Of a DNA stretch of 64,000 nt, positions 4,340-29,547 are shown one piece after another; the first letter of the stretch is position 1, and each line of letters starts with the position of its first letter. Origin of the DNA: Halpernia humi (GTDB lineage: Bacteria; Bacteroidota; Bacteroidia; Flavobacteriales; Weeksellaceae). The translations under genes were made by a program, and so were the position numbers. Where the stretch lies: assembly GCF_900108025.1 (NCBI RefSeq), contig NZ_FNUS01000004.1, positions 186,001-250,000 of the forward strand. Direction: 5' to 3'. The notes beneath the pieces are model-generated. The model was given only the letters and a program-made list of their open reading frames with translations. It did not search any database and had not been told where the DNA came from.

Positions 4340-4837
4340 ATGAAAAATATAGATAAAAACAAAGATTTCGAAACCCGCTCATTAGACACAGTATGCATAA
4401 ATGAAAGCCATTTAGAGCACAAATGGTACCACAATATCAAATACTTAATAGTAGGTTTATTATTCGGAATAGTATTTATAAAAGCCGAAATAATCAGTTG
4501 GTACCGCATACAAGAAATGTTTCGTTTTCAATCTTTTCATATGTACGGTGTTATTGGTAGTGCTGTTATAGTTGGTGCAATTTCGGTTTTTATGATTAAA
4601 AAACTTAATATAAAAACCATTTATGGCGAAAAAATAGAGTTTCATGATAAGAAATTTAATAAAGGTCAGATCATTGGTGGACTTATTTTTGGTTTAGGCT
4701 GGGCTATTACAGGTGCGTGTCCTGGACCTATTTTCGCACAAATTGGAACTGGAGTGACTGTGATGATTATAACTTTATTCTTTGCGATTGTTGGCACATG
4801 GGTGTATGGTTATTTTAGAGATAAGCTACCTCATTAA
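4340..4837 (+). CDS. YeeE/YedE-related membrane protein (DUF6691 type), partner of the upstream transporter half
   Basis: This 165-residue protein has four predicted membrane helices. It begins with a hydrophilic N-terminus of about 35 residues and carries the signature GWAITGACPGPIFAQIGTG near its C-terminal third. The cysteine in GACPGP is the conserved sulfur-relay residue of the family. In Bacteroidota and many proteobacteria two half-size YeeE/YedE genes lie side by side next to persulfide dioxygenases, and the pair is thought to form one sulfur transporter. Here it follows the broken partner by 12 bases. If the partner is truly frameshifted, this half may be without function. Confidence 0.8.
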   Translation: MKNIDKNKDFETRSLDTVCINESHLEHKWYHNIKYLIVGLLFGIVFIKAEIISWYRIQEMFRFQSFHMYGVIGSAVIVGAISVFMIKKLNIKTIYGEKIEFHDKKFNKGQIIGGLIFGLGWAITGACPGPIFAQIGTGVTVMIITLFFAIVGTWVYGYFRDKLPH

Positions 4838-4846
4838 TTAACGTTT

Positions 4847-5593
4847 ATGTATTGGTTTAAAAGATTGCTGGTAACAGCGATATGGATATTTATTGTCCAA
4901 ACTTTACAGGCACAAGAACATTACAACACTTGGTTTCGCGGTACTTTGAGCATTCCAGTCGGCGAAAAATTTAAAATAGATAACGAGCTTCAGCACAGGA
5001 GACAAAACGGCTTTGAAAACGAGAATATGTTAGGTGAAAACTTGATGTTTGCTTTCAGGAATTGGTTACATTATCAACACAGTCAAGATGTGAAATTTTC
5101 CTTATCTCCCTTAGCTTATTTTAAGAACTACAAGATTATTCAAAAACATTTAGACGAAACTACTATACCAAGCAGTGAAATTCGTTTTTCGGCGGCAGTT
5201 GAATTACAACACGAGATACTGAAAAAATTTTATATAGTAGATAGGTCAGCTGCCGAATATCGAATATTTGACAACAATCAAGCAGACATCATCCGGCTTC
5301 GAAACCGTTTTGGCTTTCGCTACGACTTTACTGGAAGACTAAAGATTGGTGTTTTTGACGAATTGCTTTTTAATCTTTCTGGCACAACATACCATCATTT
5401 CTTTGATCACGATCGTTTAGGGCTGAATATCGAATACAAACTTGTACCAAATGTAAAATTTGACATTGGTTATATGCACATTACTCGCTTACCTTTGAAT
5501 AGTACAACAAAACTGCATGAAAATAATCTCTATCTCAATTTTACCTATCAACTAAAAAAGAAGAATAACAAAACATCAATTCCACCAATGTAA
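4847..5593 (+). CDS. DUF2490 outer-membrane beta-barrel protein
   Basis: This 248-residue product has a signal peptide (MYWFKRLLVTAIWIFIVQTLQAQ, cleavage after the QAQ near residue 23) and then alternating amphipathic strands. Features of DUF2490 are NTWF near the start, ELQHRRQNGF, RLRNRFGFRYDF, FDELLFNL and a final aromatic strand with Y-Y-type alternation. The family is an uncharacterised outer-membrane protein common in Bacteroidota. It directly follows the sulfur-transporter genes by nine bases and may be the outer-membrane port for their substrate; that is inference from position. Confidence 0.7.
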   Translation: MYWFKRLLVTAIWIFIVQTLQAQEHYNTWFRGTLSIPVGEKFKIDNELQHRRQNGFENENMLGENLMFAFRNWLHYQHSQDVKFSLSPLAYFKNYKIIQKHLDETTIPSSEIRFSAAVELQHEILKKFYIVDRSAAEYRIFDNNQADIIRLRNRFGFRYDFTGRLKIGVFDELLFNLSGTTYHHFFDHDRLGLNIEYKLVPNVKFDIGYMHITRLPLNSTTKLHENNLYLNFTYQLKKKNNKTSIPPM

Positions 5594-5625
5594 CAAAAGT
5601 TACAGTGTAATGAAAACAGATAGCC

Positions 5626-5633
5626 TAACTTTG
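5626..5633 (+). promoter_or_regulatory. -7 promoter box for the persulfide dioxygenase-rhodanese gene
   Basis: TAACTTTG matches the Bacteroidota -7 consensus TAnnTTTG exactly and lies 22 bases before the ATG at 5655, in a 61-base gap. No convincing -33 TTG is visible at the usual spacing. It suggests that the gene has its own promoter. Confidence 0.45.
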
Positions 5634-5654
5634 CGAGTTAAGAATTTCTAAATA

Positions 5655-7139
5655 ATGTTGATTATGCTAATCAAAGGAAAGTTTACGACTATTATGGTTG
5701 TATTTATAATCTTGTTCTTTCACGGAAATAAATTACAAGCCCAAAGCTATTTTTTTGAGCGGGTATATGATGAAACACTTGCACAGGCAAGTTTTGTCAT
5801 CGGTGATCTGAATACCAAAGAAGCTATTGTTATTGACCCCAAACGCGACATAGATACCTATTTGGAAATTGCCAAAATTAACAATCTCAAAATAATTAAA
5901 GCAACTGAAACGCACATCCATGCAGATTTTTTAAGTGGCTCCCGTGAATTGGCTGCTGCCACAGGTGCAGAGTTGTTACTATCTGATGAGGGAGGAACAG
6001 ATTGGCAATATCAATTTCCACATACGGGATTGAAGGAAGGCAGTATAATCTTCATTGGACAGGTAGAAATTAGCGTAATGCACACACCCGGACATACACC
6101 TGAAAGCATCACTTTTTTGGTAAGAGATACGAAAGTTCCTGTAACACCACAAAGAGCCATTACGGGAGATTTTATTTTCGTGGGCGATGTTGGTCGTCCT
6201 GACCTACTGGAAAAAGCAGCTGGGCAAGAAGGCTCACAGGAGCTTGGCGCAAAACAGCTTTATGCTTCCATACAGAAGTTTTCAAAATTGCCTGATGATT
6301 TGGAGATATGGGCTGGACACGGGGCTGGATCATTCTGCGGTAAGAGCCTAAGTACCATTCCTCATTCTACACTAAGGGAAGAAAAGCAGAACAGCAAAGC
6401 ATTCCAATTTAAAAATGATGAAAAGGGGTTTGTGCACTACATCTTGAACGGGCAGCCAACACCACCAAAATATTTTGCTATGATGAAGCACTTGAATAAA
6501 GTAGATCGACCGTTGCTGATACAGGTTCCTATTCATCCAACACTTAACCCGACCTCTTTTCAAAAAGCAATAGATAACAAATTACTGATTATTGATACCC
6601 GCAATAAAAACGAGATTGCCAAAGCTCACATTCCGGGAAGCCTGCATATAGAAAACGGAAAATCATTTTCCACTTGGGTAGGTTCTTTGATAGATTATCA
6701 ACATCAAATTGTATTGATAACTGATGAAAACCACATGGAGGATCTGACACGTAAGATGATGCGTATCGGGATGGACAACATCTACGGGTTTGTGATCAGC
6801 TTAAATAAGATGAATGTGGCACTGGAAAAATCCGATCTCGTTAACATTGAGGAACTGAAAAAGCACTTGAACAAGAAAGATGTTCAAATCATAGATGTGC
6901 GAACCGAAAGCGAATACGACAACGGACATATCAAAGGTGTAGAAAATATTGTTCTTACTTCATTAGAAAAAAATATTCAAAAAATCAGTAAAGATAAGCC
7001 TGTCATTGTTCATTGCCAAAGCGGAGTGCGAGCTGCAATGGCATACTCTATATTGAGAAGAAACGGAATTAAAAACCTAAGTATTTATTTAGGTGGTATT
7101 AACGAGTGGACAGAACAAAAGAATGAATTAACCAGGTAA
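5655..7139 (+). CDS. Secreted persulfide dioxygenase-like metallohydrolase fused to two rhodanese domains (CstB-like)
   Basis: This 494-residue protein has a signal peptide ending at QAQ (about residue 30), so it acts outside the cytoplasm. A metallo-beta-lactamase domain (31-270) has ETHIHADF (H87, H89, D91; the usual last His of HxHxDH is Phe), TPGHTPES (H147), TGDFIFVGDVGRPDL (D172, D178) and GHG (H222). His87, His147 and Asp172 match the Fe(II) facial triad of ETHE1-type persulfide dioxygenases. An inactive rhodanese domain (about 300-380) and an active one (about 398-490, HCQSGVRA, Cys454) follow. The architecture matches CstB-like enzymes that oxidise persulfides to sulfite and thiosulfate. 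A beheaded paralogue of the rhodanese half lies at 588-1274. The start at 5655 or 5664 gives the same mature protein. Confidence 0.85.
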   Translation: MLIMLIKGKFTTIMVVFIILFFHGNKLQAQSYFFERVYDETLAQASFVIGDLNTKEAIVIDPKRDIDTYLEIAKINNLKIIKATETHIHADFLSGSRELAAATGAELLLSDEGGTDWQYQFPHTGLKEGSIIFIGQVEISVMHTPGHTPESITFLVRDTKVPVTPQRAITGDFIFVGDVGRPDLLEKAAGQEGSQELGAKQLYASIQKFSKLPDDLEIWAGHGAGSFCGKSLSTIPHSTLREEKQNSKAFQFKNDEKGFVHYILNGQPTPPKYFAMMKHLNKVDRPLLIQVPIHPTLNPTSFQKAIDNKLLIIDTRNKNEIAKAHIPGSLHIENGKSFSTWVGSLIDYQHQIVLITDENHMEDLTRKMMRIGMDNIYGFVISLNKMNVALEKSDLVNIEELKKHLNKKDVQIIDVRTESEYDNGHIKGVENIVLTSLEKNIQKISKDKPVIVHCQSGVRAAMAYSILRRNGIKNLSIYLGGINEWTEQKNELTR

Positions 7140-7779: not shown

Positions 7780-9162
7780 ATGATAAAACATATTATGGCG
7801 GTCACTTTGTTGTGGCTAGCCGTTGTTGTTGCTTTTCCGCTATATGCGCAGCAACACAAGGAACACACCTTAGGCAGTTTGTGGCCTAAAGTTGAAGAAA
7901 ATTATCCGGGTATTAGTGCAAAAACATCGGAGATTGATGCCGCAAAATTCAACCAACGGGCAGTTAAGGGCAATATGCTTCCCCAAATTAACGCACAGGC
8001 ACAAAATACTTATGGAACTTACGAAGGTAGTGCAGGTGGTTTTTTCCCACAGCCTGGTTTTTTTAACGTAAATGGCCCAGTACCATTAGATGGTAGTTCT
8101 ACCGCAGCCAATACCTTTGGCTCCGCTATTGTGAATTTTGAAATGTTCTCTTTCGGAAAGCTCCGTAAGCAGAACGAGGCTGCGGGTGCTTTATATAACA
8201 AATCGGTCAGCGATAAAGATGCTTACCTGCTCAACCTAAAAAAGACATTATCTGAAAGGTACATCATTCTTCTTTACAATAATGCTAAGCTGCAATGGAC
8301 CCAAAAGAATGCCGAACGTCTTGACGACATCCGGAAAATAACTTCGGGATTGTCAGCATCAGGCCTAAGACCTGCGGCAGACAGCTTGCTTGCTTCATCA
8401 TCGTATGTGCAGGCAATGGGCGAGCATGACAAATGGTATGGCTTTAAAAATGCTTCTTATATTAAACTATTGGAGTTGTATGCCAATGATACCATAGATT
8501 TCACAGCATCAATCGACCGTTTCGGTAATCCCACAGAAAATGGTTTAAATAAATTAAATACCATTAATCCTTCGCACCCCATATTAGATGCGCTAGACAA
8601 GCAGTCGGAGTATTATACTTTAAGTGGTGAGGCACAAAAAAGAGCTTCTCTGCCTTCGATCAACTTGCTGGGTGGTTATGCTTATCGGGGCACTGGCATC
8701 AGCCCTAACGGAAACGTATCGGGAGCATGGAAAGACGGGTTCAGCAATACCACCAATAATTTTTTGGCAGGTGTCGGCATTACCTGGAATTTGACTAATC
8801 TGCATACTAACCGGATGAAAGGCGAACAACTGTTTAAAGAAGCCGAAAGTACGAAGCTACTTCAATCACAGTACCAGCTGGCAATGCAAGCAGATTTATC
8901 TGCTTCGCAGGCAAAAATTGTTCAGCAATACCAACAGCTTCAGAAAACGAAGCTGGCCGTACAGCAGTCGCAAGATGCGTACAATATGTACCTCGCAAGG
9001 TACAAAAGCGGTTTAATTACGCTAAGCGAACTTTTACAGATACGCATTTTGCTTGAACAGGCAGAGAATGTACATATCGAGGCTTCACGTGAATATTGGG
9101 GATTGCTAGCTTATGAAGCGGAGCTAACTGCAGATTTCGACTTTTTATTCAACAACCTTTAA
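7780..9162 (+). CDS. TolC-family outer-membrane efflux channel
   Basis: This 460-residue protein has a signal peptide (hydrophobic MAVTLLWLAVVVAFPLYAQ, cleavage after YAQ) and the alternating helical and strand composition of outer-membrane efflux proteins, with long glutamine- and alanine-rich helices near the C-terminus (QAKIVQQYQQLQKTK). The SGLITLSELLQ motif near residue 415 is typical of TolC-type proteins. It would form the trimeric outer-membrane duct for the RND pump, whose gene begins ten bases downstream. In this operon the channel gene comes first, whereas adaptor-pump-channel is the commoner order. It starts an operon of about 11.5 kb. Confidence 0.85.
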   Translation: MIKHIMAVTLLWLAVVVAFPLYAQQHKEHTLGSLWPKVEENYPGISAKTSEIDAAKFNQRAVKGNMLPQINAQAQNTYGTYEGSAGGFFPQPGFFNVNGPVPLDGSSTAANTFGSAIVNFEMFSFGKLRKQNEAAGALYNKSVSDKDAYLLNLKKTLSERYIILLYNNAKLQWTQKNAERLDDIRKITSGLSASGLRPAADSLLASSSYVQAMGEHDKWYGFKNASYIKLLELYANDTIDFTASIDRFGNPTENGLNKLNTINPSHPILDALDKQSEYYTLSGEAQKRASLPSINLLGGYAYRGTGISPNGNVSGAWKDGFSNTTNNFLAGVGITWNLTNLHTNRMKGEQLFKEAESTKLLQSQYQLAMQADLSASQAKIVQQYQQLQKTKLAVQQSQDAYNMYLARYKSGLITLSELLQIRILLEQAENVHIEASREYWGLLAYEAELTADFDFLFNNL

Positions 9163-9172
9163 ATAATCGTAT

Positions 9173-12100
9173 ATGAACATTATAAGATTTGCGTTAAGAA
9201 AACCAATTGCGATTATGGTTGTCGTACTAGCAATAGCTTTCTTTTCCTATAATACCGTAAAAAAAATAAACGTAGACATTTTTCCCGAAGTGGAATTGCC
9301 TGCGATGTATGTTGCTATGCCTTACGGTGGACTGTCCCCAGCTTATATGGACGGGTTTATGGCTAACGAGTTCCAAAAGGTACTTCTTTTTGTGAGTGGA
9401 GTAAAAAACATTGATTTTAAAAGCGTACAGGGGCTAACCCTGATGAAGCTGACCTTTTATCCCGGAACGGATATGGCACAAGCTGCTGGAGAGGTATCAA
9501 CATCGGTCTCAAGGGCAATGGGTTTCCTACCGCCCGGAGCAGTTCCACCTATGGTAGTAAGATTTGACGGTAGTTCGCTTCCAGTAGGTAACCTTGTTTT
9601 TGAAAGCGACCAGCGTTCCGTAAATGAAATACAGACATTGGCATTGACCAAAATCAGACCAATGTTCGTACAAATCCCAGGCATTACTTCTCCCGCTCCT
9701 TTTGGCGGAAATGTACGTTCCATTGTGATCAATATCGATCCTGACGCAATGCAAGCCAATGGATTAAGCCCCGAAGATATTACCGTTGCCATCACTAAAA
9801 ATAGTCTTCCATCTCCTGCTGGAAGTATTCGCATAGGAGATGAAAACTTGATGGCTCCTATAAACTCTATCGCTAAAGGACCTGCAGAACTATTGAAGAC
9901 CCCTGTAAAAACAAGCGACAACCGTACTATATATGTTGGCGATGTAGCCCGTGTGGAGGACGGAGCAGATCAAACAGTAGGCTACGCTTTGATAAACGGA
10001 AAACGTTCTGTTTACCTGCCTATTATCAAAAAAGCAGATGCCTCCACATTGGATGCCGTGGAGAACCTAAAAGCTGCCATTCCGATGCTGAAAGACCAAT
10101 TACCTGAAGATGTAAAAGTCAGTTATGAATTTGACCAATCAAATTATATCGAACGTTCCCTTTCCAACCTTATACACGAAGGTATTTTAGGAGCTGTTTT
10201 CACGGGATTGGTCATACTATTGTTCTTGGGAGACACACGTGGAGCTATCATTGTGGTATTGACTATTCCAATTGCCATTCTTACAGCAGTTACTGTTTTA
10301 TATCTCTTAGGGCAAACCATAAATATCATGACATTGAGTGGTCTTGCTCTTTCCATCGGTATTCTCGTTGATGAAGCCACAGTAACCATAGAGAATATCC
10401 ACCAACATATGGAAATGGGTAAACCCAAGCAACGGGCAATTATAGATGCTTTAATCGAAATTTCTATACCGAAATTATTGATCTTACTATGTATTCTTGC
10501 TGTATTGACCCCTGCTTTCATTATGACAGGCATTCCTAGAGATATGTTTATGCCTCTGTCGATGGCGGTTGCCTTTGCAATGATTGCATCCTTTTTGGCT
10601 TCACAGACCTTTGTACCGATACTGGCCAACTGGATGATGAAGAACAAGCACAACACAGCAGCCAATACTCCAAGAAAGCGAGCTTTTTTTGAAAAATTCC
10701 GGGTAAACTATTCTTACAGGATGCGTAAATGGTCAACCAAGGCTATCCCACTTTTTGTTGTGTATGTGCTGGTAGCGAGTGTAATTGCTGGCGTTTTATT
10801 AACAGTTGTTGGCACTGATGTAATGCCAGTTTCCAATAATGGAGATTTTCAGATACGCATACAGGCTCCACAGGGAAGCAGAATAGAAAAAACAGAACAG
10901 ATTGTTAAAGATATTACAGGAGATATCAAAGCAGAACTGCCTGACAACGGTTTAAATATTACCTCTGCATTTGTAGGTATGCACCCCGCAGGGTCTCCGA
11001 TAAATCCGATATTCCTTTTCAGTAATTCTTCTCACGAAGCTATACTGCAAATATCTGTCAATAAAGAAGTGTATGATGGATCAATGGAAGAATTCAAAGA
11101 GAAAGTCCGTAAAAAGATTATAGAGAAGTACCCCGAAGTCGCTTTTAATTTCGAACCAATGGAACTGACCGAAAAGATTATGGGTCAAGGAGCGATGACG
11201 CCTATTGAAGTTAAAGTTGGAGCCAATCAGATAAAAGGTGCTTTTGCCCATGCATCAAAAATTGAAGCCAATTTAAAAAAAGTTCCATATCTGAGGGATG
11301 TGCGTATTGCCGAACCTATTGCCTATCCAACAATGGAAATTGACGTAAACCGTGACCTTGCTGGACAATTTGGACTGACGATGCAGGATATTACACGTAG
11401 CCTTGTTACGGCTACATCATCTACACGCTTTACGGATAAGAACCTATGGATTGATCCTAAATCAGGACTGGTTTTTCAAACACAAGTACAAATTCCAGAG
11501 GGCATTATGTCGGAAGAAAGACTTCGGTCACTTCCCTTGAAAGCTGGAAGTCTTCGCCCGGTACTTGAAGATGTAGCAACCATACGAAGGGTTACTTCTC
11601 CTGCACAAGTAAACAGAAAGGGGCCTAACCGTTACGTTACCATTGTGGCTAACCTTTACGGAAAAGATTTAGGTACAGCTTCACGAGCAGTTAAACAAGC
11701 TATCAAAAATGCTGGAGAGCCACCTCGTGGAACTATTGTTTGGACAGAAGGTACACTACAGCTTTTAGATGATACTTTGGGTAGTCTTTTGGCAGGTTTA
11801 GGTGTGGCAATTATAGCTATATTCCTTATGTTGTCGGCTTTTTATCAATCGTTCAAAGTACCGCTTATTATTCTATCGGTATTACCTGCCGTGATTGCCG
11901 GTAGTCTTATCATTCTATTCCTCACAGGTAGTACGCTTAACCTGCAATCCTATATGGGTATTATTATGTCGCTTGGTGTATCGGTTTCTAATGCAGTATT
12001 ATTGGTTAATCAAGCCGAACATTATCGAAAAAAACTGGCACTTAAGCCTGCTAATGCAGCAAGGCTCGCTGCTTCGTCGAGGTTAAGACCAGTGTTGATG

Positions 12101-12349
12101 ACAGCAGCGGCGATGCTTGCCGGAATGTTACCAATGGCAATGGGCTTAGGCGATGGAGCCGAACAAGTAGCACCCTTGGGAAGAGCTGTTATCGGGGGGC
12201 TGATTGCTTCCACTGTAACCATCTTGTTATTAGTTCCGCATTTCTTTTCTTCCCTAATGTCGAGGACTTCAATAATCAGTCCTTCGTTAGACCCTGATGA
12301 TGAAGATAGTAGGTATTATGCAGAACAGTCCGATAAACAAACGATATAA
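9173..12349 (+). CDS. RND-family efflux pump, inner-membrane permease
   Basis: This 1058-residue protein has the full RND architecture: a first membrane helix (IMVVVLAIAFFSYNT), a large periplasmic loop, a block of six helices (about 335-540), a second periplasmic loop and a final helix block (about 870-1040). The proton-relay segment in helix 4 reads GILVDEATVTIEN (near residue 398), an Asp-Glu pair where drug pumps of the HAE1 group have Asp-Asp and metal pumps usually have Asp-Gly. This places it nearer the drug/hydrophobe group, but substrate is not predictable. It forms a tripartite pump with the flanking channel and adaptor. The genes that follow encode thioredoxins and DsbD, so its cargo or maturation may involve thiol redox. 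Confidence 0.9.
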   Translation: MNIIRFALRKPIAIMVVVLAIAFFSYNTVKKINVDIFPEVELPAMYVAMPYGGLSPAYMDGFMANEFQKVLLFVSGVKNIDFKSVQGLTLMKLTFYPGTDMAQAAGEVSTSVSRAMGFLPPGAVPPMVVRFDGSSLPVGNLVFESDQRSVNEIQTLALTKIRPMFVQIPGITSPAPFGGNVRSIVINIDPDAMQANGLSPEDITVAITKNSLPSPAGSIRIGDENLMAPINSIAKGPAELLKTPVKTSDNRTIYVGDVARVEDGADQTVGYALINGKRSVYLPIIKKADASTLDAVENLKAAIPMLKDQLPEDVKVSYEFDQSNYIERSLSNLIHEGILGAVFTGLVILLFLGDTRGAIIVVLTIPIAILTAVTVLYLLGQTINIMTLSGLALSIGILVDEATVTIENIHQHMEMGKPKQRAIIDALIEISIPKLLILLCILAVLTPAFIMTGIPRDMFMPLSMAVAFAMIASFLASQTFVPILANWMMKNKHNTAANTPRKRAFFEKFRVNYSYRMRKWSTKAIPLFVVYVLVASVIAGVLLTVVGTDVMPVSNNGDFQIRIQAPQGSRIEKTEQIVKDITGDIKAELPDNGLNITSAFVGMHPAGSPINPIFLFSNSSHEAILQISVNKEVYDGSMEEFKEKVRKKIIEKYPEVAFNFEPMELTEKIMGQGAMTPIEVKVGANQIKGAFAHASKIEANLKKVPYLRDVRIAEPIAYPTMEIDVNRDLAGQFGLTMQDITRSLVTATSSTRFTDKNLWIDPKSGLVFQTQVQIPEGIMSEERLRSLPLKAGSLRPVLEDVATIRRVTSPAQVNRKGPNRYVTIVANLYGKDLGTASRAVKQAIKNAGEPPRGTIVWTEGTLQLLDDTLGSLLAGLGVAIIAIFLMLSAFYQSFKVPLIILSVLPAVIAGSLIILFLTGSTLNLQSYMGIIMSLGVSVSNAVLLVNQAEHYRKKLALKPANAARLAASSRLRPVLMTAAAMLAGMLPMAMGLGDGAEQVAPLGRAVIGGLIASTVTILLLVPHFFSSLMSRTSIISPSLDPDDEDSRYYAEQSDKQTI

Positions 12350-26303: not shown

Positions 26304-26319
26304 ATCGTAATATTGCGAT
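26304..26319. promoter_or_regulatory. Candidate ArsR operator 1
   Basis: ATCGTAATATTGCGAT is a 16-base palindrome with one imperfect pair, between the promoter and arsR. The core TAATATTG resembles the centre of the second palindrome at 26691-26708. ArsR-family repressors bind such short A+T-rich palindromes. Confidence 0.6.
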
Positions 26320-26335
26320 GTAAAAATGTAAACTA

Positions 26336-26668
26336 ATGGGACTTACCAAATCAGAAATATTTACAGACCAACAGAATAAGCTGGCTTCTCGATTTAAAGT
26401 TTTGGCACATCCTGCAAGGATTGCTATACTTCAATATATCATCAATCAAGATGTCTGCATCTGTAACGATTTGGTTGAGGAATTAGGGTTGGCACAGGCA
26501 ACCATTTCACAACATCTAAAGGAATTAAAAAACATCGGTATCGTTCAGGGAACCATTGAGGGAAAATCTGTTTGCTATTGTATTGATGAAAAAGTATGGA
26601 ATGAAATTCAAGAGGAATTTAATGCGTTTTTCAATCAGGAGGTAAAAGTAACCAAGTGCTGCTCATAG
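26336..26668 (+). CDS. arsR: ArsR-family metalloregulatory repressor
   Basis: This 110-residue winged-helix protein has FKVLAHPARIAILQYI (alpha1-2), the metal-sensing helix motif DVCICNDLVEEL (cysteines 41 and 43) equivalent to the ELCVCDL site of arsenite sensors, a recognition helix GLAQATISQHLKELK, and a C-terminal cysteine pair (residues 108-109). Arsenite or antimonite binding to these cysteines would release the operator. It is the first gene of the operon, preceded by its own promoter and palindrome, so it is probably autoregulated. DNA between it and the next gene contains a second palindrome. Confidence 0.9.
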   Translation: MGLTKSEIFTDQQNKLASRFKVLAHPARIAILQYIINQDVCICNDLVEELGLAQATISQHLKELKNIGIVQGTIEGKSVCYCIDEKVWNEIQEEFNAFFNQEVKVTKCCS

Positions 26669-26690
26669 CATTTTTTTAATATTTAACATC

Positions 26691-26708
26691 GTTATATTGC
26701 AATATAAC
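26691..26708. promoter_or_regulatory. Candidate ArsR operator 2 (perfect palindrome)
   Basis: GTTATATTGCAATATAAC is a perfect 18-base palindrome in the 70-base gap between arsR and the DUF6428 gene, preceded by ATC as in operator 1. It would allow separate control of the downstream resistance genes. Confidence 0.6.
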
Positions 26709-26738
26709 ATTTATTGTACTACTTAAAATTCAGTTAAT

Positions 26739-27212
26739 ATGAAACTATCAAAAATCAAAGAAATCTTACCAGCATTAGAGAATGTTGAATTTCAATTAGA
26801 GAACGGAACATTTGTACCGGAACACTTCCACGTTACAGAAATAGGTGTTGTTACAAAACACTTCATTGATTGTGGTGGAACGATTAGAAATGAAAAAGTT
26901 GTCAATTTCCAATTATGGAATGCTGACGATTACGAACATAGATTGAAGCCAACCAAACTATTAAACATCATCAAACTATCCGAAGAAAAATTAGGTATGG
27001 AAGATGCCGAAATAGAAGTAGAATATCAAAGTGATACTATCGGTAAATATGATTTGGATTTCAACGGAAAAACATTCGTACTGAAAAGTAAAACAACAGC
27101 TTGTTTGGCTCAAGATGCCTGCGGTATTCCTTCAGAAAAACAAAAGAAAAATTTGGCTGAATTATCTGTAAACAATTCTCACGCTTGTACACCAGGAGGA
27201 GGTTGTTGTTAA
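26739..27212 (+). CDS. DUF6428 family arsenic-operon protein
   Basis: This 157-residue protein has an N-terminal domain with FVPEHFHVTEIGVVTKHFIDCGG, a mixed alpha/beta middle and a cysteine-rich end (ACLAQDACGIP and HACTPGGGCC). Genes of this family recur directly after arsR in Bacteroidota arsenic operons, hence the assignment. The two histidines, the early cysteine and the cysteine-rich tail could bind arsenite or a metal, but the biochemical role is unknown. It follows the palindrome described above. Confidence 0.75.
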   Translation: MKLSKIKEILPALENVEFQLENGTFVPEHFHVTEIGVVTKHFIDCGGTIRNEKVVNFQLWNADDYEHRLKPTKLLNIIKLSEEKLGMEDAEIEVEYQSDTIGKYDLDFNGKTFVLKSKTTACLAQDACGIPSEKQKKNLAELSVNNSHACTPGGGCC

Positions 27213-27268
27213 TACTAAAATTAATAAGACAAAATTTAAACAATAAAAATCAATAAAAATCAATAAAA

Positions 27269-28042
27269 ATGAACATTGCATTATTCAGTGACATTCACGC
27301 CAATCTACCTGCATTAGAAGCATTCTTTGAGGATATGGAAAAAAGAAATCCCGACAGTATTTATTGCTTAGGCGATTTGGTAGGCTATAATATTTGGGCT
27401 AATGAAGTAGTGAACGAAATCCGTAAAAGGAAAATACCAACCATTGCAGGGAATTATGATTTTGGCATCGGGCGTATGAGCAATGATTGCGGATGTGCTT
27501 ATAAAACCGATAGTGAAAAAGGCAATGGCAGCGTATCTATTTCCTTTACCAACTCTATTATGAAAGATGAAGAAAGAGCCTATTTGCGTACACTTCCGGC
27601 ACATATCAAAGTAGAATTTCAGTTGAACGAGGACAAGCTCAATTTACTATTGGTACACGGTAGCCCAAGAAAGATAAACGAATACTTATTTGAAGACAGG
27701 GAAGAAAAAAGTATGCTTAGAATTATGGAACAGGCAGACGCAGACATTATGTGTTTCGGGCATACGCATAAGCCATACCACCGTATTTTAAATTCGGGAA
27801 TTGACGGACAAAACCATTTCAGACACGCCATCAATATAGGTTCGGTAGGAAAGCCGAAAGACAGCGATGTAAGAGGCGGTTATGTAATACTTACTATCAA
27901 CGAGCAAAGTTCTGTATTGGATAAAGACAGTATCAGTGTGGAATTTATACGCTTTGATTATGATATTGAAAGAGCAGCAAAAGCAGTAGAGGAAAGCATT
28001 TTACCAAACGAATACGCAGAAAATTTAAGGAGAGGCTACTAA
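27269..28042 (+). CDS. Calcineurin-like metallophosphatase (YfcE/MJ0936 type)
   Basis: This 257-residue cytoplasmic protein has the dimetal phosphoesterase motifs in order: FSDIHANL (D8, H10), LGDLVGYN (D36), AGNYDFGI (Asn for metal bridging; Tyr in place of the usual His), VHGSPR and FGHTHKPYH, plus NIGSVGKP. It belongs to the small phosphodiesterase group that hydrolyses phosphodiesters or phosphorylated peptides. Its place between DUF6428 and a GcvH-like gene within an arsenic operon is unusual. It could act on an arsenate- or phosphate-linked intermediate, but this is speculation. Confidence 0.75.
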   Translation: MNIALFSDIHANLPALEAFFEDMEKRNPDSIYCLGDLVGYNIWANEVVNEIRKRKIPTIAGNYDFGIGRMSNDCGCAYKTDSEKGNGSVSISFTNSIMKDEERAYLRTLPAHIKVEFQLNEDKLNLLLVHGSPRKINEYLFEDREEKSMLRIMEQADADIMCFGHTHKPYHRILNSGIDGQNHFRHAINIGSVGKPKDSDVRGGYVILTINEQSSVLDKDSISVEFIRFDYDIERAAKAVEESILPNEYAENLRRGY

Positions 28043-28059
28043 TCTAAAAATTTATAAAA

Positions 28060-28437
28060 ATGGAATTTCCAACCGATAGAAAGTATTCAAAAGAACATAC
28101 GTGGATAAGCGTACACGACAACACAGGTACAATAGGCATTACAGAATTTGCACAAAGCGAATTGGGCGAAATCGTATATGCAGATTTACCCAATGTTGGA
28201 TATAGTTTTCAGCAGGATGAAGTATTCGGCTCTGTTGAAGCGGTTAAAACGGTCAGTGATTTATTTATGCCTGTATCGGGTAAAATCATTGAAACGAACC
28301 AACGCTTATTAAAAGAACCAACACTAATCAATTCAGAACCTTTTGGAAATGGTTGGCTGATAAAAATTGAAATAAAAGATATTGCAGAATTAGAAAAATT
28401 ATTGACATCAAACCAATATAAAGAACTTACAAATTAG
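28060..28437 (+). CDS. gcvH: GcvH-like lipoyl carrier protein inside the arsenic operon
   Basis: This 125-residue protein is a full-length glycine cleavage H-like protein: [10 protein letters not shown] at the start, [19 protein letters not shown], and the lipoylation site [11 protein letters not shown] with the acceptor Lys63, then [10 protein letters not shown]. No gcvP, gcvT or lipoyl-ligase gene lies near; the neighbours are a phosphatase 17 bases upstream and the ACR3 pump seven bases downstream. A housekeeping copy would be elsewhere in the genome. Reduced lipoamide is a prime arsenite target, so a dithiol carrier or arsenite scavenger role is attractive but inferred. The sulfur-oxidation protein LbpA is another GcvH-like relative. 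Confidence 0.85.
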
Positions 28438-28444
28438 CCACGCA

Positions 28445-29473
28445 ATGCAACCAAAATTAAAATTCTTAGACAGATACCTTACCTTATGGATATTCCTTGC
28501 AATGGCAGTAGGTATAGGTTTGGGATATATCTTTCCCGGTATTTCAAAAATTACAAATGCCCTATCCGTAGGCACTACAAACATTCCGTTGGCAATAGGT
28601 TTAATATTGATGATGTACCCGCCATTGGCAAAGGTTGATTATTCATTGTTACCTATGGCATTTAAGGATAAAAAAGTAATCGGTATATCCTTATTGCTGA
28701 ATTGGATTATCGGCACGGTACTGATGTTCGGTTTAGCAGTTTTGTTTTTACGAAACGAACCCGATTATATGACAGGCTTAATTCTTATCGGTTTAGCAAG
28801 GTGTATTGCAATGGTTATCGTGTGGAGTGATTTAGCTAAAGCTAACAGAGAATATACAGCTATGTTAGTTGCATTAAACAGCATCTTTCAGATACTTTCT
28901 TATAGCTTCTTGGTTTGGTTATTCATCAATGTATTACCTGAAAAATTAGGGTTAGCCAATTTCAATGTAAGCGTATCAATGAAAGATGTTACCGAAAGCG
29001 TATTGATATATTTAGGCATTCCATTCTTGGCAGGTTTTTTAAGCCGTTACTTCCTTGTAAAATCAAAAGGTATAGAATGGTATAACCGGAAATTTGTACC
29101 CCGAATATCGCCCATTACATTATATGCTTTACTGTTTACGATAGTATTAATGTTCAGTCTGAAAGGCGATAAAATATTAGAGTTGCCAATGGATGTAATA
29201 AAAGTAGCCATACCGCTAATCATCTATTTTGTACTGATGTTTTTTGTGAGCTTCTTTATCAATAAATCCCTTAAAGTTCCTTACGACAAAAACGCATCCA
29301 TCGCATTCACAGCCACAGGAAACAATTTTGAATTGGCAATAGCCGTAGCAATAGCAATTTTTGGTATTCATTCGCCACAGGCATTTGTGGGCGTTATCGG
29401 CCCACTGGTGGAAGTTCCAGTACTCATATTATTGGTAAGGGCAAGTTTATGGCTAAAGAAAAAATATTACTAA
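28445..29473 (+). CDS. acr3: ACR3-family arsenite efflux permease
   Basis: This 342-residue protein has about ten membrane helices. Signatures of ACR3 are [54 protein letters not shown] (conserved Cys120), [16 protein letters not shown] and [13 protein letters not shown] with the conserved glutamate. It expels As(III) from the cytoplasm using the proton gradient. It is the last gene of the arsenic operon and is followed by a hairpin terminator at 29525. No arsC or arsM gene is present, so the operon acts on arsenite that is already reduced. Confidence 0.9.
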
Positions 29474-29524
29474 AGTTAATTTAAGAACGTACAAGAGCAT
29501 TTTGAAGCATCAAAAAACTAAAGA

Positions 29525-29547
29525 AAACCCTCTGAATTAGAGGGTTT
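29525..29547. terminator. Bidirectional terminator between acr3 and the ORF6N gene
   Basis: A nine-base stem AAACCCTCT / AGAGGGTTT with a five-base loop lies between two converging genes. A-rich DNA precedes it and T-rich DNA follows, so it can serve both strands. Confidence 0.75.

Follow-up and report, generated by a model that had tools for sequence, protein, structure and literature searches.

The window considered here is a 64,000-nt stretch of the Halpernia humi genome (assembly GCF_900108025.1, contig NZ_FNUS01000004.1, positions 186,001–250,000; positions below are window coordinates). Its forward strand carries, at 26304–29547, an arsenic resistance (ars) operon consisting of arsR, a DUF6428 gene, a gene for a calcineurin-type metallophosphoesterase (MPE), a gcvH-like gene and acr3, with two operator-like repeats and one terminator-like stem-loop. 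The explanation tentatively preferred is that the operon detoxifies arsenate, with the MPE as arsenate reductase and the GcvH-like protein (ars-GcvH) as a shuttle whose lipoyl dithiol would return the MPE to its reduced state. The first-pass annotation of the stretch had proposed this gene order, and the strand, coordinates and protein families were borne out.

In the proposed scheme ArsR would sense arsenic, the MPE would reduce As(V) to As(III) through Cys74 and Cys76, as reported for Car1, and ACR3 would export As(III). ars-GcvH would be a repurposed lipoyl carrier, whose lipoyl arm on Lys63 is presumably kept reduced by the dihydrolipoamide dehydrogenase of the cell. This arm would re-reduce the Cys74–Cys76 disulfide locally, in the role played by thioredoxin for other arsenate reductases, and the loss of Glu14 would make it unsuited to glycine cleavage. 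Such a redox couple is suggested because the lipoyl dithiol adjoins a reductase that would form a Cys74–Cys76 disulfide. In its widest form the scheme is a lipoyl-dependent arsenate reduction leading from NADH via dihydrolipoamide dehydrogenase, a lipoyl carrier outside glycine cleavage and the MPE reductase to export by ACR3, and carried by mobile elements of Bacteroidota; this complete chain may exist, and is put forward with somewhat more reserve.

The metallophosphoesterase as a candidate arsenate reductase

The MPE of the window carries Cys74-Gly-Cys76. According to the accessible portions of PMC12124457 (2025), Cys74 and Cys76 are essential to the activity of Car1, the As(V) reductase of Rufibacter tibetensis, and the ars-operon MPE of three anaerobic soil isolates is approximately 40% identical to Car1. 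The operon had initially been described as lacking an arsenate reductase. Family-model searches did give no ArsC or ArsM match among the five operon proteins; however, an arsenate reductase is probably present, because the MPE has the Cys pair reported to be essential in Car1. The MPE is probably of the Car1 type, as compared through the published description of that enzyme. The Cys pair is retained in 83 of the 84 MPE loci compared (46/47 with gcvH and 37/37 without it). The sole gcvH-bearing locus without the pair (L040, 3800–4570) belongs to a metagenome bin and has Phe instead of Cys74, which may be a sequence error.

Residues D8, H10, D36, N62, H130, H165 and H167, which we take to be the di-metal ligands of the MPE superfamily, are invariant in an alignment of 40 sequences. 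The predicted model (pLDDT 94.9) resembles 3rqz, 1nnw, 2gju and SapH (Z 27.3–28.7), and matches 3rqz with Z 28.7 and rmsd 2.8 over 218 residues. The fold of SapH, an Ap4A hydrolase (3qfn), is also close (Z 27.4, rmsd 2.6, 234 residues aligned). This identity was not accepted, because the top folds are near-equal (the top five lie within Z 1.4) and the fold shows no function. The earlier proposal of a phosphatase that trims a lipoyl or phosphate adduct found no support; the conserved Cys-Gly-Cys (CGC) motif matches the MPE-type arsenate reductase and points to arsenate reduction. At 27449–27460 (Gly61–Asp64 of the MPE), GNYD is present in 84/84 CGC-type open reading frames (ORFs). Of the 19 other ORFs, 18 have GNHD, the reading of most MPEs that stand second, in tandem, in ars operons. 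The loss of His in GNYD was considered as a sign of lost phosphatase activity and proved indecisive, since SapH has GNWE there.

MPEs in ars operons are already known. The available parts of two papers show MrMe1 and MrMe2 as uncharacterised MPE genes in Mucilaginibacter ars operons (PMC10652896) and an MPE named in an ars cluster figure (PMC6620896). Outside the operon, the window genome encodes one PF01451 protein, which by eye resembles an ordinary low-molecular-weight (LMW) phosphatase, and two ArsC-family (PF03960) proteins; of these, the one of 116 aa resembles a glutaredoxin-type ArsC, likewise by eye, and the other has 117 aa.

The GcvH clade and its distribution

The first-pass annotation had recognised an intact lipoylation site in the GcvH-like protein. 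Lys63 indeed stands in the expected motif and is retained in 95/95 aligned rows, the 39 ars-linked rows included. In the tree of these 95 rows, the 39 ars-linked GcvHs form one side of a branch (support 100/98), with 49 housekeeping rows and 7 others outside it; L053 and L059 (internal stops) were excluded from the tree, and L056, L057, L076 and L077 (truncated genes) from both alignment and tree. Position 14 is occupied by Thr in 39/39 ars rows and by Glu in 49/49 Bacteroidota housekeeping rows and 6/7 of the others. Position 12 is acidic in 38 of the 39 ars rows and Gln in one, and Cys is absent from all 39. ars-GcvH is not a housekeeping stray, because it forms a separate clade with Thr14 throughout; the simplest reading is that it would still bear lipoate and would no longer be a proper aminomethyl carrier.

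Glu is present at position 14 in all five solved H proteins that were aligned, of 14 found. Simulations of the Escherichia coli H protein show the loaded arm locked in the cavity by bonds of its aminomethyl nitrogen to Glu12 and Glu14; the oxidised arm and the reduced arm both lie outside the cavity (PMC7733448). The mutants reported in the accessible part of that paper concern Ser67, with no Glu14 mutant among them. The GcvH-like protein of Acetoanaerobium (L150) has Leu at position 14, and other GcvH relatives besides the ars type may thus have left glycine cleavage. On a Priestia megaterium plasmid (L148, 1–584), an 'arsenate reductase family' gene is located directly 5' of a gcvH gene whose product has Glu14.

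A dedicated lipoyl carrier for arsenic handling had been proposed for the operon. The separate clade, Thr14, the retained Lys63 and the adjacency to ars genes support such a carrier. As to its task, a role as reductant is at least as likely as that of As(III) buffer, carrier or sensor, because the Cys-Gly-Cys of the MPE matches the MPE-type arsenate reductase. Another contig of the window genome carries a further gcvH, with 53% identity to the ars copy, so the concern that the operon holds the only gcvH of the genome is removed. A housekeeping-like gcvH (45–56% identity) was found in 29 of the 31 carrier genomes searched, the search having started from 33 of the 43 gcvH loci described below and covered the genomes of 31 of them; the two genomes without it are metagenome bins. 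Glu14 is present in all 20 of these housekeeping copies that were read. Lipoylation of ars-GcvH in the window organism is possible, because LipA and one LplA/LipB-family protein are encoded in its genome.

An MPE-alignment scan of one genome per species (84,980 species) gave at least 521 relatives, of which the best 80 loci were analysed. The survey of ars operons for gcvH and the phosphatase-family gene, suggested with the initial annotation, is answered by the gcvH sequence found in 43 of these 80 loci, broken in six of the 43. Forty-two of them are labelled Bacteroidota and one is an Ignavibacteriota metagenome bin; the pairing recurs in no fewer than four named Bacteroidota families. The usual order is arsR–DUF6428–(extra genes)–MPE–gcvH–acr3, and gcvH lies directly 5' of acr3 in most loci. 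Other orders are arsM–acr3–MPE–gcvH (L098, L102) and acr3–MPE followed by one other gene and then gcvH (L095, L115). One gene separates MPE and gcvH in L073, L078 and L088. In L043 and L045–L051, DUF6428 and the MPE are separated by an insertion (approximately 4400–5960) of DoxX-like and chromate-transporter genes, in a module that is near-identical in several genera.

Searches with GcvH only, like those anchored on the MPE, recovered the combination in other genomes, against the possibility that it occurs nowhere else. In the family of the window organism, 30 of 320 genomes matched at 1e-46 (37 places), a cut-off that misses divergent ars-type copies, e.g., that of G419 (1.1e-45); these genomes overlap partly with the best 80 MPE loci. 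All 30 loci (one per genome) contain a CGC-type MPE, Thr14 and acr3. The distance between the MPE and gcvH matches is 20–24 in these loci, and 21 in the window, where the intergenic gap is 17 nt and gcvH is followed by acr3 after 7 nt. An internal stop is found in 2/30 of the gcvH genes. At the same cut-off there were four matches among 395 genomes of the order, three of the ars type beside an MPE and one housekeeping (G881, 58% identical, with Glu14), and both matches among 378 genomes of another family were of the ars type. In G1718, from that family, the same partners are arranged as gcvH–acr3–MPE. At 1e-20, multiple matches were found in three of 395 genomes of the class: G000 and G342 have an ars-type copy, and G128 has other copies, its extra GcvHs comprising two with Glu14 and a third, 31% identical, whose position 14 was unread by the motif. 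The KEHTW pattern was found in 4 of 395 genomes of the phylum, and the reversed control pattern in three; the matches in G659 and G719 were taken as chance, judging by the matched letters alone, which have an in-frame stop codon at the start. None of the 162 plasmid GcvH records was 60% or more identical. The MPE–gcvH pairing is patchy but recurrent, and is commonest in the family of the window organism among the groups sampled.

Weighing of the alternatives

The redox role of ars-GcvH is favoured because the MPE partner is constant while acr3 moves (L095, L098, L102, L115), and because the partners persist in the altered order of G1718. It is also favoured because ArsC-type genes are fewer in the loci with gcvH, and because the loci scanned show no WCxxC motif of the thioredoxin type in the neighbourhood of the MPE. 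A further point in favour is that a figure legend in PMC12124457 lists a thioredoxin-family gene in clostridial ars operons with a Car1-like gene. ArsC-type genes are present in 5/43 loci with gcvH vs 14/36 without it (p 0.007, kinship ignored); the 'ArsC' class is a similarity cluster, which also includes LMW-phosphatase-like proteins of approximately 203 aa, and counts over 79 loci exclude L101, which has no MPE ORF. A second MPE, of the GNHD type, is rare with gcvH (1/43 vs 15/41 without it), a difference confounded by descent.

Several observations weigh against re-reduction of the MPE by ars-GcvH. The gene most often broken is gcvH (7/47), compared with 1/84 for the MPE, 3/68 for DUF6428 and 3/79 for ACR3, plus one at an edge, and the dN/dS of gcvH is above that of the MPE in most pairs compared. 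All 37 gcvH-free MPE loci keep the same Cys pair, because of which gcvH is not generally required; it would be an enhancer, not a requirement, if the redox role holds. The gcvH of L040 is intact and identical in sequence to that of the window, yet its MPE is without Cys74. The association counts ignore descent, and the independent-pairs test had two pairs. The MPE Car1, described by Shen et al. in 2024, reportedly couples to thioredoxin.

The order of G1718, with gcvH adjoining acr3 and the MPE on the far side, also fits well the main rival explanation, in which ars-GcvH is an As(III) carrier or buffer: its reduced lipoyl dithiol would chelate As(III) and spare the housekeeping lipoyl domains, or pass As(III) to ACR3, perhaps with participation of DUF6428. 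As(III) is bound by dithiols, dihydrolipoyl among them; in most loci acr3 is the next gene after gcvH; and the loss of Glu14 fits this function as well as it fits a redox role. DUF6428, with six Cys invariant in an alignment of 31 sequences, is commoner in gcvH loci (39/43 vs 21/36). However, gcvH stays after the MPE in the four loci where acr3 is elsewhere, and ars-GcvH, being devoid of Cys, could offer at most two thiols per molecule. This explanation is possible, though less likely than the redox role; the redox role and As(III) capture by the same dithiol may both be true.

Alternatively, ars-GcvH could be a spare H protein, which replaces housekeeping GcvH in glycine cleavage or donates lipoyl groups to re-lipoylate arsenite-poisoned dehydrogenases. 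Lipoyl enzymes are targets of arsenic, and ars-GcvH both passes the GcvH equivalog model TIGR00527 (148.1 vs 115.85 bits) and keeps the lipoyl lysine. Nevertheless, Glu14 is replaced by Thr in every aligned copy of this separate clade, which also disfavours the earlier suggestion that the gene replaces a poisoned housekeeping protein; a housekeeping-like copy is already present in 29/31 carrier genomes, and beside the one LplA/LipB-family protein no second amidotransferase of the LipL kind, as needed for a relay, was seen in the window genome. This explanation is improbable. Capture of gcvH as a passenger, once, into an ars element, where it is kept by linkage and has no arsenic role, agrees with the broken copies, with identical or near-identical proteins in different families, which point to horizontal spread, and with the variable presence of gcvH across the MPE loci (the best tree has 11 changes, of which well-supported branches force two). 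It is nonetheless also improbable, since the ars gcvH is under purifying selection (dN/dS 0.04–0.21 in 16 selected pairs), the clade is deep with a fixed change in the cavity, and the same partners occur in several gene orders. Re-reduction of the MPE by ars-GcvH is thus retained as the preferred explanation.

Operon structure and relation to known systems

The window holds two copies of the pattern ATCGNNATATTGCRAT, one ahead of arsR and the other ahead of DUF6428 (Table 1), and none of 100 window shuffles gave it; the motif was found in 77 of the 159 loci collected. These repeats are probable ArsR binding sites. A consensus scan gave four terminator-like stems in the region vs 2.0 expected. 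The parts of the operon besides ACR3 are small and probably soluble.

Table 1. Features of the ars operon of Halpernia humi (window coordinates)
Feature	Position	Strand	Basis or remark
Operator-like repeat ATCGTAATATTGCGAT	26304–26319	+	5' of arsR; probable ArsR site, ArsR binding inferred
arsR, 110 aa	26336–26668	+	HTH_5 43 bits; NF033788 above cut-off
Second operator-like repeat ATCGTTATATTGCAAT	26688–26703	+	Between arsR and DUF6428
DUF6428 protein, 157 aa	26739–27212	+	PF20001, 227 bits
MPE, 257 aa, probable Car1-type arsenate reductase	27269–28042	+	PF12850, PF00149
MPE codons Cys74, Gly75, Cys76	27488–27496	+	Read from sequence
ars-type GcvH, 125 aa, lipoyl carrier by family	28060–28437	+	PF01597 141 bits; TIGR00527 148.1 bits
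gcvH codon Thr14 (Glu in housekeeping GcvH)	28099–28101	+	Read from sequence
gcvH codon Lys63, lipoyl attachment site	28246–28248	+	Read from sequence; expected motif
acr3, arsenite efflux transporter, 342 aa	28445–29473	+	TIGR00832 438.3 bits, cut-off 282.8
Terminator-like stem-loop, 3' of acr3	29525–29547	+	Consensus scan

In the window the operon is flanked by a 1809-aa gene, DUF1896, ORF6N and TopB; these genes surround the same operon in L041, L042 and L068 and recur partly in L040, L043, L069 and L079; the flanks differ in the remaining loci. Because these genes recur round the same operon, the operon is, as judged from its surroundings, cargo of a mobile-element-like segment in the window and in the loci with matching flanks. 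To the left of the element, genes for an outer-membrane efflux protein and an AcrB-type RND pump are located at 7780–12349.

DUF6428 is present in most of these ars loci. Its predicted model (pLDDT 79.9) has a disordered Cys-rich tail; no Foldseek match was found at E 0.001 or better, and no sequence match among solved structures. The best VIA-align match had Z 3.0 and rmsd 5.1 with 94 residues aligned; taken together, these results do not show a new fold. Its Cys residues give DUF6428 the look of a protein that binds arsenic, and the gene order in L035 and in the accessible part of PMC10652896 suggests that it may be the 'ArsU' of the Mucilaginibacter papers. No report on DUF6428 was found in the open-licence literature.

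The same literature (titles, abstract openings and some texts) gave no report of gcvH in ars operons, and the portions available of PMC6316836 and PMC6775490 contain nothing on such an operon. What we take to be new is the clade of lipoyl carriers, with its Thr14 and with the probable reductase as its partner. Lipoate is known above all as a target that arsenic poisons; a lipoyl protein serving arsenic detoxification would reverse that role. If the proposed function is true, it would be assigned to a clade that family models label as GcvH of glycine cleavage, would add a further GcvH relative outside glycine cleavage after LbpA, marked by one residue at position 14, and would offer the recently described MPE arsenate reductases a candidate for their physiological reductant. 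It would also be a redox route for an arsenate reductase beside thioredoxin and glutaredoxin.

Lipoyl proteins act as electron donors in the mycobacterial lipoyl E2/AhpD peroxidase system. There, as proposed here, dihydrolipoamide dehydrogenase feeds electrons to the lipoyl arm, which hands them on to an enzyme with a Cys pair; the analogy is one of function. Unlike in the scheme proposed for ars-GcvH, the lipoyl protein of that system is the E2 of a dehydrogenase, and peroxide is the final substrate. LbpA of Hdr-like sulfur oxidation is, like ars-GcvH, a GcvH relative outside glycine cleavage in a dedicated cluster; unlike the Cys-free ars-GcvH, most LbpAs carry a pair of conserved Cys; most also have a specific lipoate ligase linked to them, according to the available part of PMC6067878. 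In the gcvH loci no lipoate ligase gene was recognised, in a check that took 10 further cluster representatives through Pfam and left most neighbouring genes without comparison to family models. Car1 of R. tibetensis and MrMe1/MrMe2 of Mucilaginibacter are, like the MPE of the window, encoded in ars operons, and Cys74 and Cys76 are common to Car1 and the window MPE; unlike for the window operon, no lipoyl carrier is mentioned in the accessible portions of their descriptions (PMC12124457, PMC10652896). With GcvH of glycine cleavage, ars-GcvH shares the fold family, the lipoyl Lys63, Asp67 and the TIGR00527 score, and it differs from this protein by Thr14 instead of Glu14, its separate clade, its linkage to ars genes and its coexistence with a housekeeping copy.

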